DNA of 37,005 nt. It comes from Bacteroidales bacterium (GTDB taxonomy: Bacteria > Bacteroidota > Bacteroidia > Bacteroidales > UBA932). Below, in pieces: positions 1,495 through 13,943 of this stretch. The notes beneath the pieces are model-generated. The model was not told where the DNA came from. It saw only the letters and a list, made by a program, of their open reading frames with translations, and searched no databases. Position numbers and translations under genes: made by a program. The DNA lies in contig JABUTQ010000042.1 of NCBI GenBank assembly GCA_021443605.1, forward strand, positions 1 to 37,005. Direction: 5' to 3'. The number at the start of each line of letters is the position of its first letter. Position 1 is the first letter of the stretch.

Positions 1495-1757
1495 GTACAC
1501 GAAATTGAAAAACTCAGATTCTTATGTGGGGAATGTTGGTATGGATGCCGAAGCGTATTTTGCAAAGATTGACTCCATTGCAGCAAAGATATAGTCGCAA
1601 ATGCTTTTATTTTAGTTCAGATTTTTATATATTTGTGATGTATCGGGTATATCCTCTATATCTTAAAGTCAATTCATAGATATGGGGGGGGGGTAAATGC
1701 CTGATTTGTAAATATTTACAGAAATGCCCCTTCTGCGTGAACTAAAAAAATGTACCT

Positions 1758-2378
1758 ATGAAAAACGTTTTTCTTGCTTCCGCAGCATTTTTAGCTGTTA
1801 CCATTCTCTTCGTCTCAGGATGTAGCAAAATTTCCACAACAACCGAGGATAATTCTATTTACTCGGAAATGCTCTGTTATGCAACACATTATGCTGATGT
1901 TGTCAATAATCAAATCCCATTTATTAAGACTAAAGCAAATGAAGATTCTTTTTATGGAGATAAAAACTTTGCTCCAAATCTAAGTTGCATTGACGAAAAA
2001 TTCCTTGAATATATTGAGTTATACTCTCTACCGGAAAATGTCTATGAATGGGATGAACAAGCGGTATTAGAGCTTGTTGATAATGATAATCGGTTTTCTC
2101 CAGAGGAAAAAACAATTTTCGTAAAAAGTATTGCAGCTGCTTATTTTCTAAAAAATGAATTTTCTAATCGTATTGCCTCCACAAAAGGTGATCCAAGCGA
2201 TTGTGAAGAACAGTTTAAAGAGGATATGCGGAGGGCTACCAGGAATGCAGCCATAGCATTCATTGCTGCACTTCTTGAACCTTCACTTGTGGGTGAAGCA
2301 GCCGCTTTGGTGTACTACTACTGTGAGATTGACGACGCTGAAGAAGATTATAACGATTGTATGGAACAACAACAATAG
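1758..2378 (+). CDS. Hypothetical lipoprotein, 206 aa
   Basis: N-terminal hydrophobic signal plus lipobox-like FVSGC; C-terminal hydrophobic segment; Cys-containing acidic tail. No family recognised. Confidence 0.75.
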   Translation: MKNVFLASAAFLAVTILFVSGCSKISTTTEDNSIYSEMLCYATHYADVVNNQIPFIKTKANEDSFYGDKNFAPNLSCIDEKFLEYIELYSLPENVYEWDEQAVLELVDNDNRFSPEEKTIFVKSIAAAYFLKNEFSNRIASTKGDPSDCEEQFKEDMRRATRNAAIAFIAALLEPSLVGEAAALVYYYCEIDDAEEDYNDCMEQQQ

Positions 2379-2400
2379 GGTCATAACTTGTTGTAAATGA

Positions 2401-2733
2401 TTGAAAATTAAAAATATTGATACAATGAAATTCTATTTTAAAAGAAACATTGACAGTGCAATTTCCAAACCGAAATTATACTCTTATGAGACATTTATTG
2501 TCGGGATTGTCTCTCTTTTGTTTTATTTCACAAGTGACAGTCAAAAGATTACGTCTCAATCAAAACTCTTTATAGGCATTTTTATGGGACTGTGCGCATT
2601 AACTTCTGCGATATCATTGTATAAAGAAATAAAGGAGGATTCTTCTTGTAATATTTATGACTTGTTACGATGCATAATCAGTGCTCTATTCTGTATTATG
2701 TCTTTTACCTGCATAGACATTATTTTCAAATAA
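2401..2733 (+). CDS. Small predicted inner-membrane protein, 110 aa (start may be the ATG at 2425)
   Basis: About three hydrophobic segments (FIVGIVSLLFYF, LFIGIFMGLCALTSAISLY, LLRCIISALFCIMSFTCIDIIF); 1 nt from the next ORF. Confidence 0.65.
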   Translation: MKIKNIDTMKFYFKRNIDSAISKPKLYSYETFIVGIVSLLFYFTSDSQKITSQSKLFIGIFMGLCALTSAISLYKEIKEDSSCNIYDLLRCIISALFCIMSFTCIDIIFK

Positions 2734-2734
2734 G

Positions 2735-3244
2735 ATGTTGGGCGAATGTACCAAGTTTATATTTAGAATAACCATTATTTGTCAATTGTTTATATCCTTT
2801 CCTCTTTCATCTTCTGTGAAAGTAAAATTCACTGAATTATTAGGACAAAATGTGAATATGCCTACTTGTTGTCCTGATACAACAACATTTATGTTTGTAC
2901 ATATTGTTCGTGGGCAAGAGTGTACTAAATGCAGCGTGAGTTCTCTGTATCAATGGAATGATGTGATAACTATGATAGGGAGAAAAGATATTTCTTACTT
3001 TTTCATAATAGAAACACTTCCTGAAGATACACCAGATACGATTGTTGAAGCATTAGAAAGACGGGCTTTTTTTCAGTCACTCTTTGTTGATTACAATCAT
3101 GAGTTCCTTGAAAACAATAAATGGCTAAAAAAAAGAAAGTATCGAGAATTTAATGATTTCGTCGTGGATAGGTCAGGAAAGATTGTGAAAGTTGGTGACC
3201 CTCTTAATGATTTTCACTTTCTTAGGCAAATGGTGATAATGTAA
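2735..3244 (+). CDS. Exported or membrane-anchored thioredoxin-like protein (CTKC motif)
   Basis: Hydrophobic N-terminus, then FMFVHIVRGQECTKCSVSSLYQW resembling a redoxin CxxC site after a beta strand, and a C-terminal FVVDRSGKIVKVGDP beta hairpin typical of redoxin folds. Confidence 0.6.
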   Translation: MLGECTKFIFRITIICQLFISFPLSSSVKVKFTELLGQNVNMPTCCPDTTTFMFVHIVRGQECTKCSVSSLYQWNDVITMIGRKDISYFFIIETLPEDTPDTIVEALERRAFFQSLFVDYNHEFLENNKWLKKRKYREFNDFVVDRSGKIVKVGDPLNDFHFLRQMVIM

Positions 3245-3252
3245 AGATTGTT

Positions 3253-4344
3253 CTATACAAACAGCTCTGAGATGATGTTGTCGCAGATAAACCATTTGTC
3301 CTCCGGTATGCGGTAGCGGCCGTCTGTTTGGACAAGGGAGTGCATCAGGGAAAGAGGTGTTTTGTTGAGATATTTTGCTGGGATTCCGTCGCAAGTACGG
3401 AGTCCCAGCATTATTTTTTCGTTGTAAATATCTGATTCTGAAAGAATTTCTTCTTGTGGGAGATATCCATTGCAATACTCTTTGAGATTGGCAGTGTTCC
3501 AAATTCGCCGGTTCTTGCCGTCAAAAGAGTGGGCGGCAGGGCCGAGCCCGAGATACGTTACACGCTTCCAGTAGTTGCCGTTATGGCGCGAGCGCCTGCC
3601 AGGTTTTGCAAAATTCGAGATTTCATAGTGCTCATAGCCGGCCTCTTTCAGCTTGTTGCAGAGAATCGTATATTGTTCGGCGCACTCATCCTGCGAGAGC
3701 ACCGCATCCTCGTCACCGCGCTCTGCAAGGGCGCTTTCGGGGTCTATGCTGAGCTGATATGCCGAAATATGTTCAGGCGACAATGCGGCAAGGGTTTCTA
3801 TGCTCTCGCTCCATTGAGCGTTGGAAAGCCCTCTGTATCCGAAAATCAAATCGAGGGAGATATTGTCGAAGCCGCCTTCACGCAGCATCGCAAAGGCCTT
3901 TGTTGCATCCGAAAAACTATGGCGGCGGTTCATCCATCTCAAGTGCACGTCTTGTGTCGCCTGTACCCCCATGCTGATACGTTTCACTCCGCAACTTCGA
4001 TAAGTTCTGAGAAGCTCCTTTCCGCCCCGCCGGACATCGTCCGGATTCACCTCAATGGTAAATTCTTCCAATCGCCTCAAATCAAAACTGTTGCGGAGAT
4101 TGTTTACGATTTCGGCAAACACTTCGGCAGGGAGTACCGATGGTGTGCCGCCACCAAAATAGAGTGTCGTAATCTCTTCATTATCAGAGAAAAAATCCCT
4201 TCGCCGCTGCATCTCTTCAAAGAGTGCCCATGTAAAAGCGCCGAATGTGCCGGACACAACTTCGGTGCCGACACATTCAGAGTAAAATCCGCAATAGGTG
4301 CAGAAAGTTCTGCAAAACGGTATATGTACGTATATTCCGGCCAA
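3253..4344 (-). CDS. hemW: Radical SAM heme chaperone HemW-like protein; start appears to be TTG
   Basis: IYVHIPFCRTFCTYCGFYS (CxxxCxxC), TLYFGGGTPSVL, GVQATQDVHLRWMNRRHS. TTG start directly follows the upstream gene's TAA. Confidence 0.88.
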   Translation of the reverse strand: MAGIYVHIPFCRTFCTYCGFYSECVGTEVVSGTFGAFTWALFEEMQRRRDFFSDNEEITTLYFGGGTPSVLPAEVFAEIVNNLRNSFDLRRLEEFTIEVNPDDVRRGGKELLRTYRSCGVKRISMGVQATQDVHLRWMNRRHSFSDATKAFAMLREGGFDNISLDLIFGYRGLSNAQWSESIETLAALSPEHISAYQLSIDPESALAERGDEDAVLSQDECAEQYTILCNKLKEAGYEHYEISNFAKPGRRSRHNGNYWKRVTYLGLGPAAHSFDGKNRRIWNTANLKEYCNGYLPQEEILSESDIYNEKIMLGLRTCDGIPAKYLNKTPLSLMHSLVQTDGRYRIPEDKWFICDNIISELFV

Positions 4345-5211
4345 TTATCTAAGGAGCAAATCGGCTGAACCGAGTTTGGTTTCGGTGGTATAGACATCCA
4401 CGGTATAGACACCCTTCGTGAATCCTTGTGAAGATGAGAGCCAGATGCTGATTTCCACCTCTTCGCCCTGATAATCCACTTCGCGGCTGGCACTTGCAAT
4501 CATCTCTTCTCCGGCGCAGCTGAATGTTGTCTGCTCTCCTTCGGCAATCAAGATTCCGTCCGGCCCTTTAACCCTGATATACACCCTCTTGTATCCCTTC
4601 TTGGCGATTGTGTTTTCCACAAGAGTGATGTCGGTGCGCAGTTTGGCAACACGGCTGCTGCGGTCTGTCTCCTTGTTGGAGTTGTTTATGGCCAACAAGG
4701 TGATTCCGCGTCCCTTGACTACCGAGCCCTTTTCAACTGTGGCGGCATATTGCTCTGTGGTGGATACCAGATCGTCATATTTCCTCTTGCTCTCGGCAGC
4801 TGCGCGGCGAGCTTCGGATGCCTCTTGCTTCAAGCTCATATTCAGTGAGTTGAGCGAATCAATCTGCACAATATAGTGCTTCATTATCGACCTGAGGGTG
4901 CCGAGCTCCTTTTCGTATTTCTTAATCTGGGCGCGGTTTGTCGCCTCTGTTTTCTGGAATCTCTCAATCAGCTGATCTACTTTCTCCTTCTCAACTGCAA
5001 GAGAATCGGTAAGCTGGTTGCTGTGGACGGTGAGGGAGTCGTATTCGTTGCGCAAATCCATCATCTGGCTTGTAAGTTCGGCCTTTTCCACGTTGAGGTC
5101 TTTAACGATGTTGTTTTTTGTAATCCAGATATATGCAAGAGCCCCAATCAGCAAAGCGGCAACTGCCCCAAGGACTATTGTAATGATTTTAAGCGTTTTT
5201 TCTTTTTCCAT
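4345..5211 (-). CDS. Single-TM coiled-coil protein of unknown function, 288 aa
   Basis: N-terminal TM helix, long coiled coil, beta-rich C-terminus; immediately upstream of hemW. Confidence 0.75.
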   Translation of the reverse strand: MEKEKTLKIITIVLGAVAALLIGALAYIWITKNNIVKDLNVEKAELTSQMMDLRNEYDSLTVHSNQLTDSLAVEKEKVDQLIERFQKTEATNRAQIKKYEKELGTLRSIMKHYIVQIDSLNSLNMSLKQEASEARRAAAESKRKYDDLVSTTEQYAATVEKGSVVKGRGITLLAINNSNKETDRSSRVAKLRTDITLVENTIAKKGYKRVYIRVKGPDGILIAEGEQTTFSCAGEEMIASASREVDYQGEEVEISIWLSSSQGFTKGVYTVDVYTTETKLGSADLLLR

Positions 5212-5279
5212 TGTTCGTTATGTTCAATAATTCCGCAAAAGTAATTAATTTTGTCATTATTAACCATAAAAATCGTGCT

Positions 5280-5759
5280 ATGAAGTATCTGATTCGTTCT
5301 GTAAAATATCTGCTCTATTTCGCATTGCTGTTTTGCATTATCACCCTCATCATCGCCCTGTTGATGAATCACGACATCACCCAATTCTCCGGTCTGTTCG
5401 TGGAGGGGGCCCTTTGGAAGATTATAGGGGTGTTTGTGCTGGTCTCTGCAGTATATCCCCTGTTTGGGTTCAAGAAGAATCATCTTGTGATAGACGGGGA
5501 GTTCGCCAACTATCGCGACATCATAGTTGAGACGATGCAAGCTGCTGATTACAAGCTGGTTGAAGAGACTTCTTCCAAGCTTGTGTTCCGCACTGTAAAG
5601 ACAGCCGTGAAGTTTTCCAGGATGTGGGAGGATGCCGTCACCTATGAGTTGAAAGACAATAACGAATTGGTTGTGGATGGGCCATACAAAGATACACTCA
5701 GATTTATCCGCACAATCTCATACAGACACGGAATGAATCAGCAAAAGGAGGAAGAATGA
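5280..5759 (+). CDS. Hypothetical membrane protein, about 159 aa
   Basis: Two hydrophobic segments; start at MKYLIRSVKYLLYFALLF; stop overlaps the next ATG (ATGA). Confidence 0.7.
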   Translation: MKYLIRSVKYLLYFALLFCIITLIIALLMNHDITQFSGLFVEGALWKIIGVFVLVSAVYPLFGFKKNHLVIDGEFANYRDIIVETMQAADYKLVEETSSKLVFRTVKTAVKFSRMWEDAVTYELKDNNELVVDGPYKDTLRFIRTISYRHGMNQQKEEE

Positions 5760-5974
5760 AAATAGTCGCAAAATATATGAAGCCGTATGAGGCTCACCTT
5801 GCAAAGGGGATGTTGCAGGAAGAGGGGATAATGAGCGAAGTTCTCAACGAAAATTTTCCCTATCCCGGATTGGGATTTATCCCCGGAATGGAAATCCAGC
5901 TCGTCGTCAATGACGAAGATTATGACCGTGCGCTTGAGTTAATCAATGCGGCAGCAGAATCAAGCGCGGAGTAA
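5756..5974 (+). CDS. DUF2007-type putative signal-transducing protein
   Basis: Short protein; KIVAKYMKPYEAHLAKGMLQEEGI...EIQLVVNDEDYDRALELI is the typical DUF2007 pattern. Confidence 0.75.
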   Translation: MKIVAKYMKPYEAHLAKGMLQEEGIMSEVLNENFPYPGLGFIPGMEIQLVVNDEDYDRALELINAAAESSAE

Positions 5975-6516
5975 AACTCCTCTCCAAAATGCTCTATTAA
6001 GGTGTCCTTCAAGAATTTATAAACCGGGACACCTTCTTTTTTGCCCTTTTCGAATGCACATTTGCAGATATCCCAGCGGTGCAGGTTCAGGGCAATCATC
6101 CCATTGCTCATAGTCGATACCCTGATTGGATAGAGTCGGCACGAGATAGGTTTGCGCCAGTTGCATTCTCCGTTGCAGAATGCCCTTTCAATGGCGCAGA
6201 AGCAGTTTCCGTTTTCGAAGAAAGTATATGCGCACTCTTCAGAGTTGCCAATCAGCGGGGTGACGATATCCCCGTCGTTGTCTACCTCAAAAAATCCCAC
6301 TTCATCGATTCTCGCTTTGCCGGCGGGTGTCATAAGGTCTTGATAATGAGGGTAATTGGCTTCTAATTTCTCTGTTTCCTCCTCTTTTACCGGCGCTCCG
6401 CTGTCGCCTATTATGCAACAAGCTCCTTTGCACTTCTCGTAATCGCATACAAAGCACTCGCTTACAATGTCAGACGAAATCAGGATATTGTCTATCTCAA
6501 TGATGGATGAATACAT
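5920..6516 (-). CDS. DUF3109 family Cys-rich protein
   Basis: CDYEKCKGACCIIGDSGAPV, CAIERAFCNG, W(R)KPISCRLYPIRV; matches the DUF3109 pattern. Convergent overlap with the DUF2007 gene. Confidence 0.82.
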   Translation of the reverse strand: MYSSIIEIDNILISSDIVSECFVCDYEKCKGACCIIGDSGAPVKEEETEKLEANYPHYQDLMTPAGKARIDEVGFFEVDNDGDIVTPLIGNSEECAYTFFENGNCFCAIERAFCNGECNWRKPISCRLYPIRVSTMSNGMIALNLHRWDICKCAFEKGKKEGVPVYKFLKDTLIEHFGEEFYSALDSAAALINSSARS

Positions 6517-6523
6517 AATATTT

Positions 6524-6550
6524 AAAAAAGGGGCGGTTGTTTGCCGCCCC
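6524..6550 (-). terminator. Rho-independent terminator downstream of the sdhC-like gene
   Basis: 7-bp perfect GC stem (6530-6536 / 6544-6550, GGGGCGG/CCGCCCC); on the minus strand it is followed by TTTTTT (6529-6524). Confidence 0.8.
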
Positions 6551-6573
6551 TGTATTTGTTGTAGGATTGATTT

Positions 6574-7470
6574 CTATTTGTTGTGCTTTTCGCAGCTGCC
6601 ATCGCAAGAGCCTTCTTTCCCGCATTTGCCTTCTTTCTCGCACTTGCCGTTTTTCTCGCAGCTTGCATCGTGTTTACACTCGCTTTTGCCCTCTTCGCAG
6701 TCACTGCACTCGCCACCGCCACATTCGCCTGTGCATCCATCGTGCTTTGCAGCCTTGACTTTCTGACCGCCATCGCAGCAATCCATCACAGCTTCGGTCT
6801 TAGGCTCGGGGAACCAGCCGTTTGCCCTGCCGCAAGCAACCACTGCAGTAGTTGCGAAACCGAGCATAAGGAGAGTTACAACCACGCATCCGATGCCTTT
6901 CCATCTCTTGAGCCACTTGTCGTTGTTCCAGCCGATTGTCTGGAATGCGCTCCAGAAACCGTGTGTGAGGTGGAACCAAAGGGCAGCGAACCACAAGATG
7001 TAAAGAACTGTAACCCATACGTTTCCGAAGGTAGCATAGAGAAGTGTATTGGGATCGCCCGGAGTCTTGCCCATCCAATCTTTGAGCTGCATATCAGCCC
7101 AGAAGTCTGTAAGGTGAAGAGCAATGCCGATTACAACGATGATACCGAGGATAAGCATATTTCTGGCTGACCACGAATCGGTCTTTGCCTTGTTTGATAC
7201 GGCATATCTCTGAGTACCGCGTGCGCGATAGTTTTGCAGAGAAAGGATGAATGCATAAATGATGTGAATGAGAAATCCGAATGCAAGCACCGGTACCATA
7301 ATGCTCACGATGCCGAGTGACATGAATTCGCAGCATCCTTCGAAGGCTTCAGGACTGAAAACCGAAACAAGGTTGAGACTCATGTGGAGAGTCAAAAACA
7401 GTATCAGGAACAAACCGCTGATGCTCATAATCAGCTTTTTTCCGATAGAGGAGGTAAAAATGTTTGCCAT
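6574..7470 (-). CDS. sdhC: Succinate dehydrogenase/fumarate reductase cytochrome b subunit (b558 family) with Cys-rich C-terminal tail
   Basis: SSIGKKLIMSISGLFLILFLTLHMSLNL, multiple TM helices, FHLTHGFWSAFQTIGWNN. The last ~70 aa form a hydrophilic tail with 12 Cys. Confidence 0.87.
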   Translation of the reverse strand: MANIFTSSIGKKLIMSISGLFLILFLTLHMSLNLVSVFSPEAFEGCCEFMSLGIVSIMVPVLAFGFLIHIIYAFILSLQNYRARGTQRYAVSNKAKTDSWSARNMLILGIIVVIGIALHLTDFWADMQLKDWMGKTPGDPNTLLYATFGNVWVTVLYILWFAALWFHLTHGFWSAFQTIGWNNDKWLKRWKGIGCVVVTLLMLGFATTAVVACGRANGWFPEPKTEAVMDCCDGGQKVKAAKHDGCTGECGGGECSDCEEGKSECKHDASCEKNGKCEKEGKCGKEGSCDGSCEKHNK

Positions 7471-7552
7471 AGTTTATTTTAATAATTTGTATTATCACAC
7501 TAATAGTTTGCAAAGATAACCTCAAAGTTGTAAATTACATAATATTTTTTGC

Positions 7553-7560
7553 TACTTTTG
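7553..7560 (+). promoter_or_regulatory. Bacteroidetes-type -7 box upstream of pyrH
   Basis: TACTTTTG matches TAnnTTTG, with a TTG at 7528-7530 upstream; 20 nt before the pyrH ATG. Confidence 0.5.
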
Positions 7561-7580
7561 CTACTCAAACATTACGATAT

Positions 7581-8291
7581 ATGAAATACAACAGAATATT
7601 ATTGAAACTCAGCGGAGAAGCCATCGGTGGTCCGGACGGCCGCGGGCTTGACGAAAAAGTGATGGATACTTTTGCAAAGCAGATTGCAGCTGTCGCAAAA
7701 AGCGGCGTACAAGTGGCTATTGTCATTGGAGGCGGAAACATTTTCAGGGGGCTCAGCGGCACTCAACTCGGTTTTGACCGCGTGCGTGGAGACCAGATGG
7801 GGATGCTCGCCACCGTGATAAACAGCATCGGAATGTCTTTGGCAATCAAGGCCAATGGTATTGATGCAGAGGTGTTTACATCTACCCCGATGCGCCCTTT
7901 GGCAAAATATTATATGCGAGACGAAGTTCTGGACTATCTCTCAAAAGGTGGAGTCGCCCTCATCGCCGGCGGCACAGGAAACCCCTTCTTCACAACCGAT
8001 TCCGCTTCTGCCCTCCGTGCCTGTGAGCTTAGATGCGACCTTCTGTTGAAAGGGACAAAAGTGGATGGCGTATATGACAGCGATCCCGTAAAGAATCCTT
8101 CTGCAAAAAAATATCAGACCTTGACTTTCGATAAGGCAATCGCAGACAATCTCAAGGTGATGGACAAGACTGCCTTCGCTCTTTGCAGCGAGAACGATAT
8201 GCCGATAGTTGTGTTCAATATGAATAATGAAGGAGACCTCCAGGCTGTGCTCGAAGGAGAGCCCGCAGGGACATTAGTAAGTAACAAATAA
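7581..8291 (+). CDS. pyrH: UMP kinase
   Basis: YNRILLKLSGEAIGG, VAIVIGGGNIFRG, GTGNPFFTTDSASALRACEL; followed by frr. Confidence 0.96.
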   Translation: MKYNRILLKLSGEAIGGPDGRGLDEKVMDTFAKQIAAVAKSGVQVAIVIGGGNIFRGLSGTQLGFDRVRGDQMGMLATVINSIGMSLAIKANGIDAEVFTSTPMRPLAKYYMRDEVLDYLSKGGVALIAGGTGNPFFTTDSASALRACELRCDLLLKGTKVDGVYDSDPVKNPSAKKYQTLTFDKAIADNLKVMDKTAFALCSENDMPIVVFNMNNEGDLQAVLEGEPAGTLVSNK

Positions 8292-8303
8292 CTGATTTAT
8301 AAT

Positions 8304-8867
8304 ATGATAGAGAAAGCAAACGCGGTAATTGAATCCGCAAAAAAGAAAATGAACGGGGCTGTTGAGTTTCTCGATGAAGAGCTCAAGAACTACCGTGCAG
8401 GCAAGGCTAATCCTGCCGTGTTCAATGCAGTGCTCGTAAACTACTACGGCAATATGACACCCGTTCCACAGGTTTCAAGCATCACCACACCGGATGCCAA
8501 GACAATGCTCATCCAGCCGTGGGACAAAACTCTGATTCCTGCAATCGAGAAGGCCATTATGGCTGCAAACCTCGGATTCACTCCTCAGAACAACGGCGAG
8601 CATATTCGCATCAACGTTCCCGCTCTCACCGAAGAGCGTCGCAAGGATCTCGTGAAAAAGGCTAAGACTGCCGGGGAGACCGCCAAGGTGAGCGTGCGCA
8701 ACATCCGCCGCGATGCCATAGAGTCGCTCAAGAAACTTCAGAAGGAGGGGCTTCCCGAGGATTCTGAAAAAGATTTTGAAACCAAGATTCAGAAAGAGAC
8801 CGACAACTTCTCAAAGAAAGTTGAGGAACTCCTCGTTGCCAAGGAGAAAGAGATAATGACCGTCTAA
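8304..8867 (+). CDS. frr: Ribosome recycling factor
   Basis: LDEELKNYRAGKANPAVF, PPLTEERRKDLVK-like segment, VRNIRRDAIESLKK. Confidence 0.96.
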   Translation: MIEKANAVIESAKKKMNGAVEFLDEELKNYRAGKANPAVFNAVLVNYYGNMTPVPQVSSITTPDAKTMLIQPWDKTLIPAIEKAIMAANLGFTPQNNGEHIRINVPALTEERRKDLVKKAKTAGETAKVSVRNIRRDAIESLKKLQKEGLPEDSEKDFETKIQKETDNFSKKVEELLVAKEKEIMTV

Positions 8868-8875
8868 TACGGTTT

Positions 8876-9772
8876 CTATTTCTTCTTGTTGGATACCGGA
8901 CGTTGCACGGGCTTAGGCTCCAGCACGGCCGGTTTCTTGTATTTATAGCTGAGAATCAATATGGTAAGGCCGGCCAAGATAAACGGCACACTGAGCAGTT
9001 GCCCCATATTGAGTGTCATTCCCGATTCGAAACTCACCTGGTCGTTCTTGATGAACTCAATGAGGAATCTCATTCCGAAAAGGACCATCAGGAATACACC
9101 GAAGAGCCATCCTCGGTAAATCTTGTCGCTCTTGTGGTTGTAAATCCAAAGCAGCACCAAGCCGAGAATCAAATAACTGAGGGCCTCGTAGAGCTGTGTG
9201 GGGTGGCAGGCAACCCCTTCGGGGGGGAATACGTCCGGCCCGTAGGTTGTAATCCATTCATACGACTTGGGGAATTTGAAACCCCACGGAAGGGTGGTGG
9301 CACCTCCGAAAATTTCGGAGTTGAAAAGGTTGCCCAGGCGGATGCAGCACCCGGCGAAGCTCACAACTATTGCGATTCTGTCGAATACCCACATTGTATC
9401 AAAGCCGTGTTTCTTGCCGTATTTGTGGGCGTAAATTATTACACATAAAATAACCCCTATCGCTCCGCCGTGGCTTGCAAGACCACCTTTCCAGACCTTG
9501 AAAATCTCCACAGGATGAGACAGATAGTATCCCGGCTCATAAAACAGGCAGTGGCCGAGGCGTGCCCCCACCACCGTTCCCAAAAGGAGGAGATAGAGCA
9601 GCGGGTCCAGCAACTCCGTGGAAACCCCTTCTCGTTTGTAGAATTTCATAAATAGATAATAACCCAAGGGGAATCCGGCGATAAACAGAAGGGAGTAATA
9701 TCTTATTGAAACAGGCCCAATCTGAAGCAAAATTGGATCCACGTTCCATGTAACTGTCAGAAAATCAAACAT
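8876..9772 (-). CDS. lgt: Prolipoprotein diacylglyceryl transferase
   Basis: GLASHGGAIGV, CCIRLGNLFNSEIFG, CHPTQLYEALSYL. Start set at MFDFLTVTWNVDPILLQ. Confidence 0.95.
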   Translation of the reverse strand: MFDFLTVTWNVDPILLQIGPVSIRYYSLLFIAGFPLGYYLFMKFYKREGVSTELLDPLLYLLLLGTVVGARLGHCLFYEPGYYLSHPVEIFKVWKGGLASHGGAIGVILCVIIYAHKYGKKHGFDTMWVFDRIAIVVSFAGCCIRLGNLFNSEIFGGATTLPWGFKFPKSYEWITTYGPDVFPPEGVACHPTQLYEALSYLILGLVLLWIYNHKSDKIYRGWLFGVFLMVLFGMRFLIEFIKNDQVSFESGMTLNMGQLLSVPFILAGLTILILSYKYKKPAVLEPKPVQRPVSNKKK

Positions 9773-11810: not shown

Positions 11811-12014
11811 TTGAGGCATTTTTCAAACAAAATTCACTAACTTTGCGCAAGGAAGGTAGGCGATACCACATTTTTATGGAGAATCATAGTAACTCTTTTT
11901 TGCCCCTTTCAAGTTTGCATTAATTTGAATATTGCCCAGTTTCTTGTTTTTTTGGCTTTTTAAAAGCTGGCTATGGGGCAAGAAGATAGAAAACGATAAT
12001 AAGCGTGAGACAAT

Positions 12015-13301
12015 ATGAAACTTCTTACAATCAAAAATATTGGCCCAATTGACCATGTAGAACTGAACATGAAGCGAGTAAACGTAATTATGGGTCCTCA
12101 GAGTGCAGGTAAAAGCTGCATCTTGAAGATTGCCTGCTTTTGTGCATGGGCAGAAAAGCGCATCCAACTTGAGCAGGACAAAAATGGATTCTCTGATTAC
12201 GAATTCTTGAAGGAGAACCTCATTGTGTTCCATAAATTGGACGGATTTATCCGCGAAGGCAGTATGTTCTCTTACAAGACGAATCATATGTCTTTTACAA
12301 TAGATTTTGACAAGAAAGATGGCGAGATGTTCTCTATGGCGTTTAATAAAAATGGGCATTGGGAATATCGAAGAAGTCGTGTGGCGTATATCCCTGCAGA
12401 GCGAAATATAGTGGCTGTTATTCCAAATTGGTTTGAAGTAAGTCTTGGCAATACAAATCTCAAGAGCTTTGTGTCGGATTGGAATATGACACGAGGTCTG
12501 TCCAATACGAGTCAAGAGTTGTCCGTATTGAATCTTGGCATTCGGTATTACTATGATGCAGACAAGAAACAGGACATGGTTCGTATGGCAAATGGCAATC
12601 CTTTGAACTTTGCTGATGCTTCGAGTGGTGTTCAATCAGTAATACCAATGTGGGTATATCTTGATTACCTTTTCCACAAGCAATATCAAGGACAAAATCT
12701 AAATAAACTGTCAATAGACGCAGACAACGAGAATATTCTTCAACACATTTATAACAAGAAGTATAAACCGGGTTTGGCCAAACGCATAGGAGACAACCAA
12801 GCATATATTGGCAAAATAGGAATGGGTAAATTGGCTTTTGCCAACGAAGATGAGTATAAAGAGTGTAAGTCATTGTTCAACTCATTCACGCAAACTGCTT
12901 ATTCAGACATCTATCTTGAAGAGCCGGAGCAGAACCTGTTTCCTGTGACTCAAGTGAATCTTATAGAGACACTTATGTCTGAGATGAAGCTGCATAACGA
13001 TTCCATTTTCATCGCAACTCATAGTCCTTTTATTCTCTATGCATTGAACAATTGCATGCTTGGCTATTTGGTAAAAGACAAAATAGAGCCCGGCTCTCCG
13101 CTGTTCGAAAAAAAAGATTGTTGGGTCAATCCAAAGGACGTTGCAGTTTGGGAAATTCGTGACGGTGCACTTTCGTCAGAAATTGATAAAAAATCTCTGA
13201 CAATTCAAGATAAGAGCGGGTTGATTAGAAGCAACTATTTTGATAGGGTCATGAAGCAGGTAATGGCGGACTTTACAAACTATATTGCCTATTATGACTA
13301 A
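12015..13301 (+). CDS. OLD/AAA15-like ABC-type ATPase, no TOPRIM seen
   Basis: Walker A GPQSAGKS (12093-12116), RVAYIPAERN, degenerate ABC signature DASSGVQS, Walker B DIYLEEPEQNLFP, H-loop FIATHSPFIL. Confidence 0.88.
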   Translation: MKLLTIKNIGPIDHVELNMKRVNVIMGPQSAGKSCILKIACFCAWAEKRIQLEQDKNGFSDYEFLKENLIVFHKLDGFIREGSMFSYKTNHMSFTIDFDKKDGEMFSMAFNKNGHWEYRRSRVAYIPAERNIVAVIPNWFEVSLGNTNLKSFVSDWNMTRGLSNTSQELSVLNLGIRYYYDADKKQDMVRMANGNPLNFADASSGVQSVIPMWVYLDYLFHKQYQGQNLNKLSIDADNENILQHIYNKKYKPGLAKRIGDNQAYIGKIGMGKLAFANEDEYKECKSLFNSFTQTAYSDIYLEEPEQNLFPVTQVNLIETLMSEMKLHNDSIFIATHSPFILYALNNCMLGYLVKDKIEPGSPLFEKKDCWVNPKDVAVWEIRDGALSSEIDKKSLTIQDKSGLIRSNYFDRVMKQVMADFTNYIAYYD

Positions 13302-13890
13302 ACTGGAGCAGACATTTTTAAAAGCGAAGACCTATACCGGTGATGTGTGGGTGGCTGATTATACCCTTCAAACACAAAACCTGCCAAAGGAAGAGCGTAA
13401 AGGTGTTGTCATTTCCGAAGCTGAGCTGGCAGATATCAGCTGTTTCCGTCTGCACAATGACTCAAATATCGAAATTTTAGGTGTAAACTTCGAGGAGCAT
13501 AAAAACTTTTTCCCTGAAGGATATGGAAGTTGTGAATGTCTATTCAAAGTTAAAGATGTGAACCGAGGGGGCTGGCTGCTTCTATGCGAACTTAAGTATG
13601 GAAAGGACGAATTACCTAATAATATCACCAATGCGGATAAGGCATTTGGCCAACTGTATGACACATGGAACCTTCTGAAGGATAGAAGAGTGTTTGCTGT
13701 AAGAAAATGCAAATCATACCTAAATATCAGTATGCCCAAACATGGAAATGAAACTCCGTTTGATTCGTATCTGAGCCTGCAAGATGAGAAGCTGGAGTGG
13801 TTGCAGCAGTACAGGATTAAATTGATGGGTGTGAATAACGTGCTGATAATCAATGAGGGGATTTTACAAGTTCCGAATGTTACAATATGA
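13294..13890 (+). CDS. Uncharacterised putative PD-(D/E)XK-like protein coupled to the ATPase
   Basis: ATG overlaps the ATPase stop (ATGACTAA). CECLFKVKDVNRGGWLLLCELKYGKDELPNN has an acidic residue, then an ExK on a hydrophobic strand, followed by the helix ADKAFGQLYDTWNLL. Confidence 0.6.
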   Translation: MTKLEQTFLKAKTYTGDVWVADYTLQTQNLPKEERKGVVISEAELADISCFRLHNDSNIEILGVNFEEHKNFFPEGYGSCECLFKVKDVNRGGWLLLCELKYGKDELPNNITNADKAFGQLYDTWNLLKDRRVFAVRKCKSYLNISMPKHGNETPFDSYLSLQDEKLEWLQQYRIKLMGVNNVLIINEGILQVPNVTI

Positions 13891-13930
13891 TATTTGTGAT
13901 ACACCTATCCTGAATAGAAAAAAAATATCC

Positions 13931-13938
13931 TAACTTTG
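13931..13938 (+). promoter_or_regulatory. Bacteroidetes-type -7 box (TAACTTTG) upstream of the patatin gene
   Basis: Exact TAnnTTTG match, but only 5 nt before the annotated ATG, so the start or the box may be off. Confidence 0.35.
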
Positions 13939-13943
13939 CAGAT

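Follow-up and report, generated by a model that had tools for sequence, protein, structure and literature searches.

The stretch of DNA analysed here, referred to as the window, comprises 37,005 nucleotides of a contig from a Bacteroidales bacterium, in which two overlapping genes on the forward strand, encoding an ATPase and a 198-aa partner protein, lie between rlmN and a patatin gene. Gene positions, the 8-nt overlap (ATGACTAA) and the Walker A, signature, Walker B and H-loop motifs were all as the initial annotation had given them, the motifs being invariant or nearly so among 32 ATPase homologues (L032 was excluded from this alignment because its ATPase appeared interrupted). The partner reading frame opens with an ATG at 13294 and stops at 13890. 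The features of the locus are as follows.

11811..13943, + strand: segment of about 2.1 kb that congeners with an empty rlmN-patatin site lack
11838..11845, + strand: TAACTTTG, resembling the Bacteroidota TAnnTTTG promoter element; putative promoter
12015..13301, + strand: OLD/PtuA-type ABC ATPase (PDC-M29A-like), 428 aa, proposed sensor/regulator (Pfam, PADLOC, AF2, Foldseek)
12093..12116, + strand: ATPase Walker A GPQSAGKS (G27-S34), catalytic K33; G27, Q29 and G32-S34 invariant (n=32 homologues)
12615..12638, + strand: ATPase ABC signature DASSGVQS; S203, S204 and Q207 invariant (n=32 homologues)
12909..12944, + strand: ATPase Walker B IYLEEPEQNLFP with E302/E303; E302-E305 invariant (n=32 homologues)
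13014..13031, + strand: ATPase H-loop ATHSPF (H336); T335-P338 invariant (n=32 homologues)
13032..13301, + strand: ATPase C-terminal extension (NNCMLGY...YFD...VMADF), candidate partner-binding tail
13294..13890, + strand: 198-aa PD-(D/E)XK-like putative effector, remote PDC-M29B relative (alignment, AF2 model, hhalign, Foldseek)
13357..13359, + strand: partner D22, invariant acidic residue in an N-terminal strand (homologue alignment)
13531..13539, + strand: partner C80-E81-C82, acidic residue opening strand beta2 of the predicted nuclease core; C80 and E81 invariant, C82 nearly so
13588..13596, + strand: partner ExK motif (E99-L100-K101), strand beta3; K101 invariant, E99 nearly so
13651..13653, + strand: partner Q120, mostly conserved, on the helix that follows ExK (alignment; predicted helix 110-130)

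The first gene product is an ABC ATPase of the OLD/PtuA type. It matched AAA_15, AAA_23 and AAA_21 above the Pfam cut-off, and its top PADLOC match was PDC-M29A (8.3e-48), with AriA, HEC-02A, GajA, PD-T4-4_A and PtuA far behind; the same profile was matched by 32/32 homologues. Comparison of the ATPase profile with PDB sequences recovered an OLD-family protein and AriA, and the AF2 model (pLDDT 89, pTM 0.90) was placed by Foldseek closest to PtuA of Septu (8eea, 6e-9), followed by retron Eco8, retron PtuA, GajA and Rad50. The C-terminal extension, the last 40 residues of which form a low-confidence end in the AlphaFold model (pLDDT 57–74), is kept where the long partner family is present and is mostly gone in two loci, L007 and L008, in which the ATPase has a different partner.

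The partner had no match in Pfam or PADLOC, and one meaningless match in NCBIfam, which agrees with the original view that it is not an obvious HNH, TOPRIM/DUF4435 or UvrD protein. Its alignments gave nothing credible against PDB sequences, the protein had no match among plasmid records, and comparison with a viral fold library yielded no clear relative. Weak Pfam matches of single homologues (Methyltransf_7, Fusion_gly and others) were judged to be due to chance. Homologues collected from ATPase-first loci gave an alignment of 26 partners, in which D22, C80, E81, K101, P148 and N181 are invariant and N55, C82, L96, E99, S146 and F156 nearly so, the ExK proposed at 13588–13596 thus falling on a nearly invariant glutamate and an invariant lysine. 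Exactly 17 residues separate CE from the glutamate of ExK in 26/26 partners (L024 read by eye). E99 is an aspartate in one partner (L019), and three others (L018, L021 and L028) have another residue at the position of the helix Q.

In the AF2 model of the partner (pLDDT 89, pTM 0.88), a strand at 82–86 follows E81, a second at 93–100 carries E99, a helix at 110–130 carries Q120 and a further strand spans 139–146; this predicted topology is the layout of a PD-(D/E)XK core. The top Foldseek matches to the PDB were mostly PD-(D/E)XK nucleases, among them Nt.BspD6I, Mus81-Eme1, BstEII, EcoO109I, Avs3 and Card1, with unrelated proteins interspersed. Scores were weak (best E 0.03, TM 0.32), so that for the modelled fold these matches are supportive, not decisive, and the assignment rests on the motif, the topology of the model and the relationship with PDC-M29B described below. 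Taken with the conserved CE-x17-ExK, these lines of evidence support the PD-(D/E)XK core suggested at the outset and the identification of the partner as a nuclease, its activity being presumed from them.

PADLOC's PDC-M29B profile did not match the window's own protein at E<=1, and it directly matched 8/26 of the partner homologues (best 1e-7, the window's protein not among them). Profile–profile comparison of the partner family with PDC-M29B gave hhalign 96.7%, E 4.6e-10, and an HMM of the family placed most PDC-M29B proteins, retrieved by family PDLC04563, above 226 unrelated neighbour proteins. On these three results, the partner and PDC-M29B are remotely related, the partner being the longer of the two. 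The window pair shares with PDC-M29 the adjacent A-B gene order, the gene overlap, a homologous ATPase (8e-48) and a remotely homologous, PD-(D/E)XK-like B component with the pattern C[D/E]...ExK...Q. It differs in that the canonical PDC-M29B motif is CD-x12-ELK...Q, 12 residues as against 17 separating CE (or CD) from ExK, and in that the window partner has an N-terminal extension carrying the invariant D22. The ATPase tree likewise places the window protein outside the canonical PDC-M29A clade, which forms a separate branch (length 1.46, support 100/100); the window sequence clusters with L004, L005, L006 and L040 (100/100), and next with L007, L008 and L010 (99/94). As these last three have other partners, partners have been exchanged near the window branch.

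The initial annotation had put the pair forward as a candidate new system that might be unrecognised. This is not supported, given that the ATPase matches the catalogued PDC-M29A, the partner is a remote PDC-M29B homologue and WonAB has the same design (see below); the match to a named system is nonetheless not exact, for PADLOC assigned the ATPase to PDC-M29A and nothing to the 198-aa partner, which belongs to a separate branch. The pair is a distinct, unvalidated branch of the PDC-M29 / OLD-ABC plus PD-(D/E)XK kind, not a new kind, and this branch, with its long-hairpin nuclease and N-terminal extension, looks like an uncatalogued variant, seen in Bacteroidota and Fibrobacter. PDC-M29 is not named in the literature searched, and most of PADLOC's PDCs, which were discovered through ‘guilt by embedding’, are unvalidated (PMC12988326).

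The nearest case with experiments is WonAB, from the WASA-1 prophage of Vibrio cholerae, a proven abortive-infection pair. It combines an OLD-ABC ATPase with a PD-(D/E)XK variant, and both genes are required; protection is lost in ATPase mutants and in nuclease mutants, WonB is toxic only with active WonA present, growth stops through loss of translation while DNA stays intact, and WonB is predicted to sit on C-terminal extensions of WonA (PMC12137116). OLD-ABC ATPases paired with PD-(D/E)XK nucleases have also been reported around BREX (PMC12839542). The window pair resembles WonAB and the ‘OLD-ABC ATPase + Novel REase’ arrangement in being a two-gene operon of an OLD-ABC ATPase and a (predicted) PD-(D/E)XK-variant nuclease. 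As in WonAB, the ATPase bears a C-terminal extension, and WonA K34/E300/H333 (PMC12137116) are placed like K33/E303/H336 of the window ATPase, whereas the ExK lysine is K71 in WonB and K101 in the window partner. We treat this likeness as an analogy of design and motif positions and claim no membership.

Other known pairs were compared as well. PD-T4-4 also combines an OLD-like ATPase (PD-T4-4_A, window ATPase match 1e-10) with a small CD...ELK nuclease, but the window ATPase's match to PDC-M29A exceeds this one by about 37 orders of magnitude; the window partner has no PADLOC match to the B component, and its family aligned with one PD-T4-4_B relative at hhalign 18.6%, E 0.0013. PtuA of Septu is the closest solved fold of the window ATPase, and Septu too is an operon of an ATPase and a small nuclease, PtuB; it was rejected since the window partner has no HNH or PtuB match and a restriction-endonuclease-like model. 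PARIS (AriA/AriB) and Gabija (GajA/GajB) follow a similar plan, with an OLD-type ATPase as sensor and a nuclease as effector. PARIS was set aside since the partner has no TOPRIM/DUF4435 (AriB) match and its motif differs, and Gabija since the ATPase has only 428 aa, with no fused TOPRIM, and the partner is no UvrD-like helicase (GajB).

The A+T-richness noticed initially was borne out, the pair having 39.8% GC and the 5 kb on either side of it 48.0% and 48.5%; values as low were found in 13/352 segments of equal length across the 37 kb. rlmN is present in 25/26 genomes of the same genus, and 15 congeners have the patatin gene about 15–110 nt after it and lack the insert, several others having something else after rlmN. 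This empty site indicates that the pair is an acquired insert, as its position between the two genes had suggested. A second TAACTTTG copy precedes the patatin gene at 13931–13938, and both copies lie inside an imperfect 22-nt direct repeat (11825–11846 and 13918–13939, 82%), which could be either a duplicated promoter or an insertion trace. Scans for sigma-70 promoters and terminators found sites no more numerous than in shuffles. Related pairs occur on plasmids, on mobile elements or beside an integrase; the locus L040, on an IMG/VR contig, encodes a tyrosine recombinase as well as a DUF5906 protein. Horizontal mobility of the pair is thus supported. Elsewhere in the window, a transposase-like ORF (73–1494) is followed by a region of 34% GC (1500–3250) with a lipoprotein-like ORF (1758–2378), probably together a second acquired region.

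Co-occurrence of the two genes is strict. ATPase-first searches showed the partner directly downstream in nearly all complete Bacteroidota loci and in two Fibrobacter loci, about 26 loci carrying it. Searched for in its own right, the partner was present in 8/344 genomes of the order, its own included, and the co-occurrence expected of homologues was found in all of the others, the ATPase lying directly upstream in 7/7. The arrangement is conserved at 30–57% ATPase identity, which is more than chance would give. In an even sample of the phylum (396 genomes) the partner was detected in its own genome only and in none of the other 395; its distribution is very patchy. (With the ATPase as query, an initial search of the phylum at E<=1e-30 was too strict to be informative.)

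Effectors on related ATPases vary. Short CD-x14-ELK partners accompany the ATPase in L010, L031 and L035 and on the plasmids L134 and L135. L134 is a mobilizable Muribaculaceae plasmid and L135 a Bacteroides finegoldii plasmid, both with a short CD...ELKG nuclease, the L135 pair lying within a glycosyltransferase cluster. L031 has, besides the short nuclease downstream of its ATPase, a 118-aa ORF directly upstream (5154–5507) with a weak match (E 0.008) to the effector HMM. In L007 and L008 (9206–9745) a closely related ATPase is paired with an unclassified 179-aa protein showing an FPEC...GIIDDDK pattern, TOPRIM-like by eye, and a weak PtuB1 match (0.004). One could read the branch as a system of its own, whose single conserved sensor of the OLD type has been re-armed with long CE-x17-ExK nucleases, short CD-x14-ELK nucleases or the possibly TOPRIM-like 179-aa partner; the long nuclease, owing to its N-terminal extension with D22, would then differ from WonB in its substrate or in how it is activated. 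We consider this unlikely, while giving it some weight.

In the window itself, the pair is flanked by housekeeping genes and not by a defence island, and the defence context that had been anticipated was found only among relatives. In L009 the pair (4545–6364) sits on one strand between a type III mod gene (2601–4400, 2e-163) and a type III res gene (6364–9045, 6e-159), the start of res overlapping the partner's stop. On a Persicobacter plasmid (L136), a canonical M29 pair is directly followed by genes for a DNA methyltransferase and a helicase-like protein, type III by eye. Gabija lies downstream of the pair at 0.03 kb in L021 and 2.7 kb in L018, and an AbiU-like gene occurs in the neighbourhood of L024. 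Most relatives' neighbourhoods had no strong PADLOC match among the genes resolved. Embedding in a restriction–modification operon is the strongest of these items; the context as a whole is only suggestive, because many loci have housekeeping flanks. In each of the two Chryseobacterium loci, the module is immediately preceded by two genes that form a unit of similar size (L018, 5957–7892, AAA_24 plus DUF3871; L021, 5958–7884); the surroundings of the insertion may thus be a mobile element common to both.

We regard it as probable that the pair is a two-gene abortive-infection module, an OLD-ABC ATPase with a PD-(D/E)XK nuclease, forming a divergent branch of PDC-M29. An anti-phage role is very likely; the steps that would lead to it are proposed by the same logic as the WonAB experiments and the pairs around BREX. 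Coupled translation would favour a complex in which the small nuclease sits on an ATP-bound dimer of the ATPase, bound through the ATPase C-terminal extension and idle in uninfected cells. A phage-induced change in the ATPase would release the nuclease or switch it on, and the active enzyme would cut nucleic acid, so that growth stops before phage progeny are made. Cellular RNA, with translation arrest as proposed for WonB, seems a slightly more likely substrate than DNA.

An overlapping gene pair whose relatives reside on plasmids and mobile elements might instead be a plain toxin–antitoxin or addiction module, maintaining mobile DNA, with the nuclease as toxin, the ATPase neutralising it and phage defence incidental. 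Its costly toxin would be expected to be lost first, and L004 (Leyella stercorea, the closest locus by identity, 57%) has an internal deletion of the nuclease core (9200–9450) while its ATPase stays open, as does that of L037, where the partner is cut before ExK (9235–9594). Loss of the effector with the regulator kept is, however, also expected of a costly defence effector, the position inside a restriction–modification operon favours defence, and the toxicity of the analogous WonB depends on an active WonA being present (PMC12137116), the whole making an addiction module improbable. Still less probable is an accessory of restriction or DNA repair, in which the ATPase serves to load the nuclease onto DNA ends or stalled forks, as a Rad50/RecF-like housekeeping function, or aids a neighbouring type III enzyme: the ATPase is similar to Rad50/SMC heads too, Mus81/XPF is among the partner's fold matches and type III neighbours occur in two loci, but such an enzyme is missing from the vicinity of most loci, and the patchy spread and the empty sites in close relatives do not suit housekeeping. 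That the partner is catalytically dead or a non-nuclease adaptor, the outcome being reached otherwise, is the least credible alternative, for although its lack of Pfam and PADLOC matches, the weak Foldseek scores and the substitutions of E99 and the helix Q in single homologues would fit, invariant D22, E81 and K101, a nearly invariant E99 and a fixed spacing in 26 partners, down to about 17% identity, form an active-site pattern.

As an abortive-infection module, the pair would add a nuclease family missed by current libraries to the growing class of OLD-ABC ATPase/PD-(D/E)XK defence systems. CE-x17-ExK together with D22 provides a diagnostic motif for annotating such partners, mainly in Bacteroidota, and the pair offers a direct test of the candidate PDC-M29. 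Exchange of effectors on related ATPases, moreover, gives a way to ask which part of the sensor chooses the weapon.
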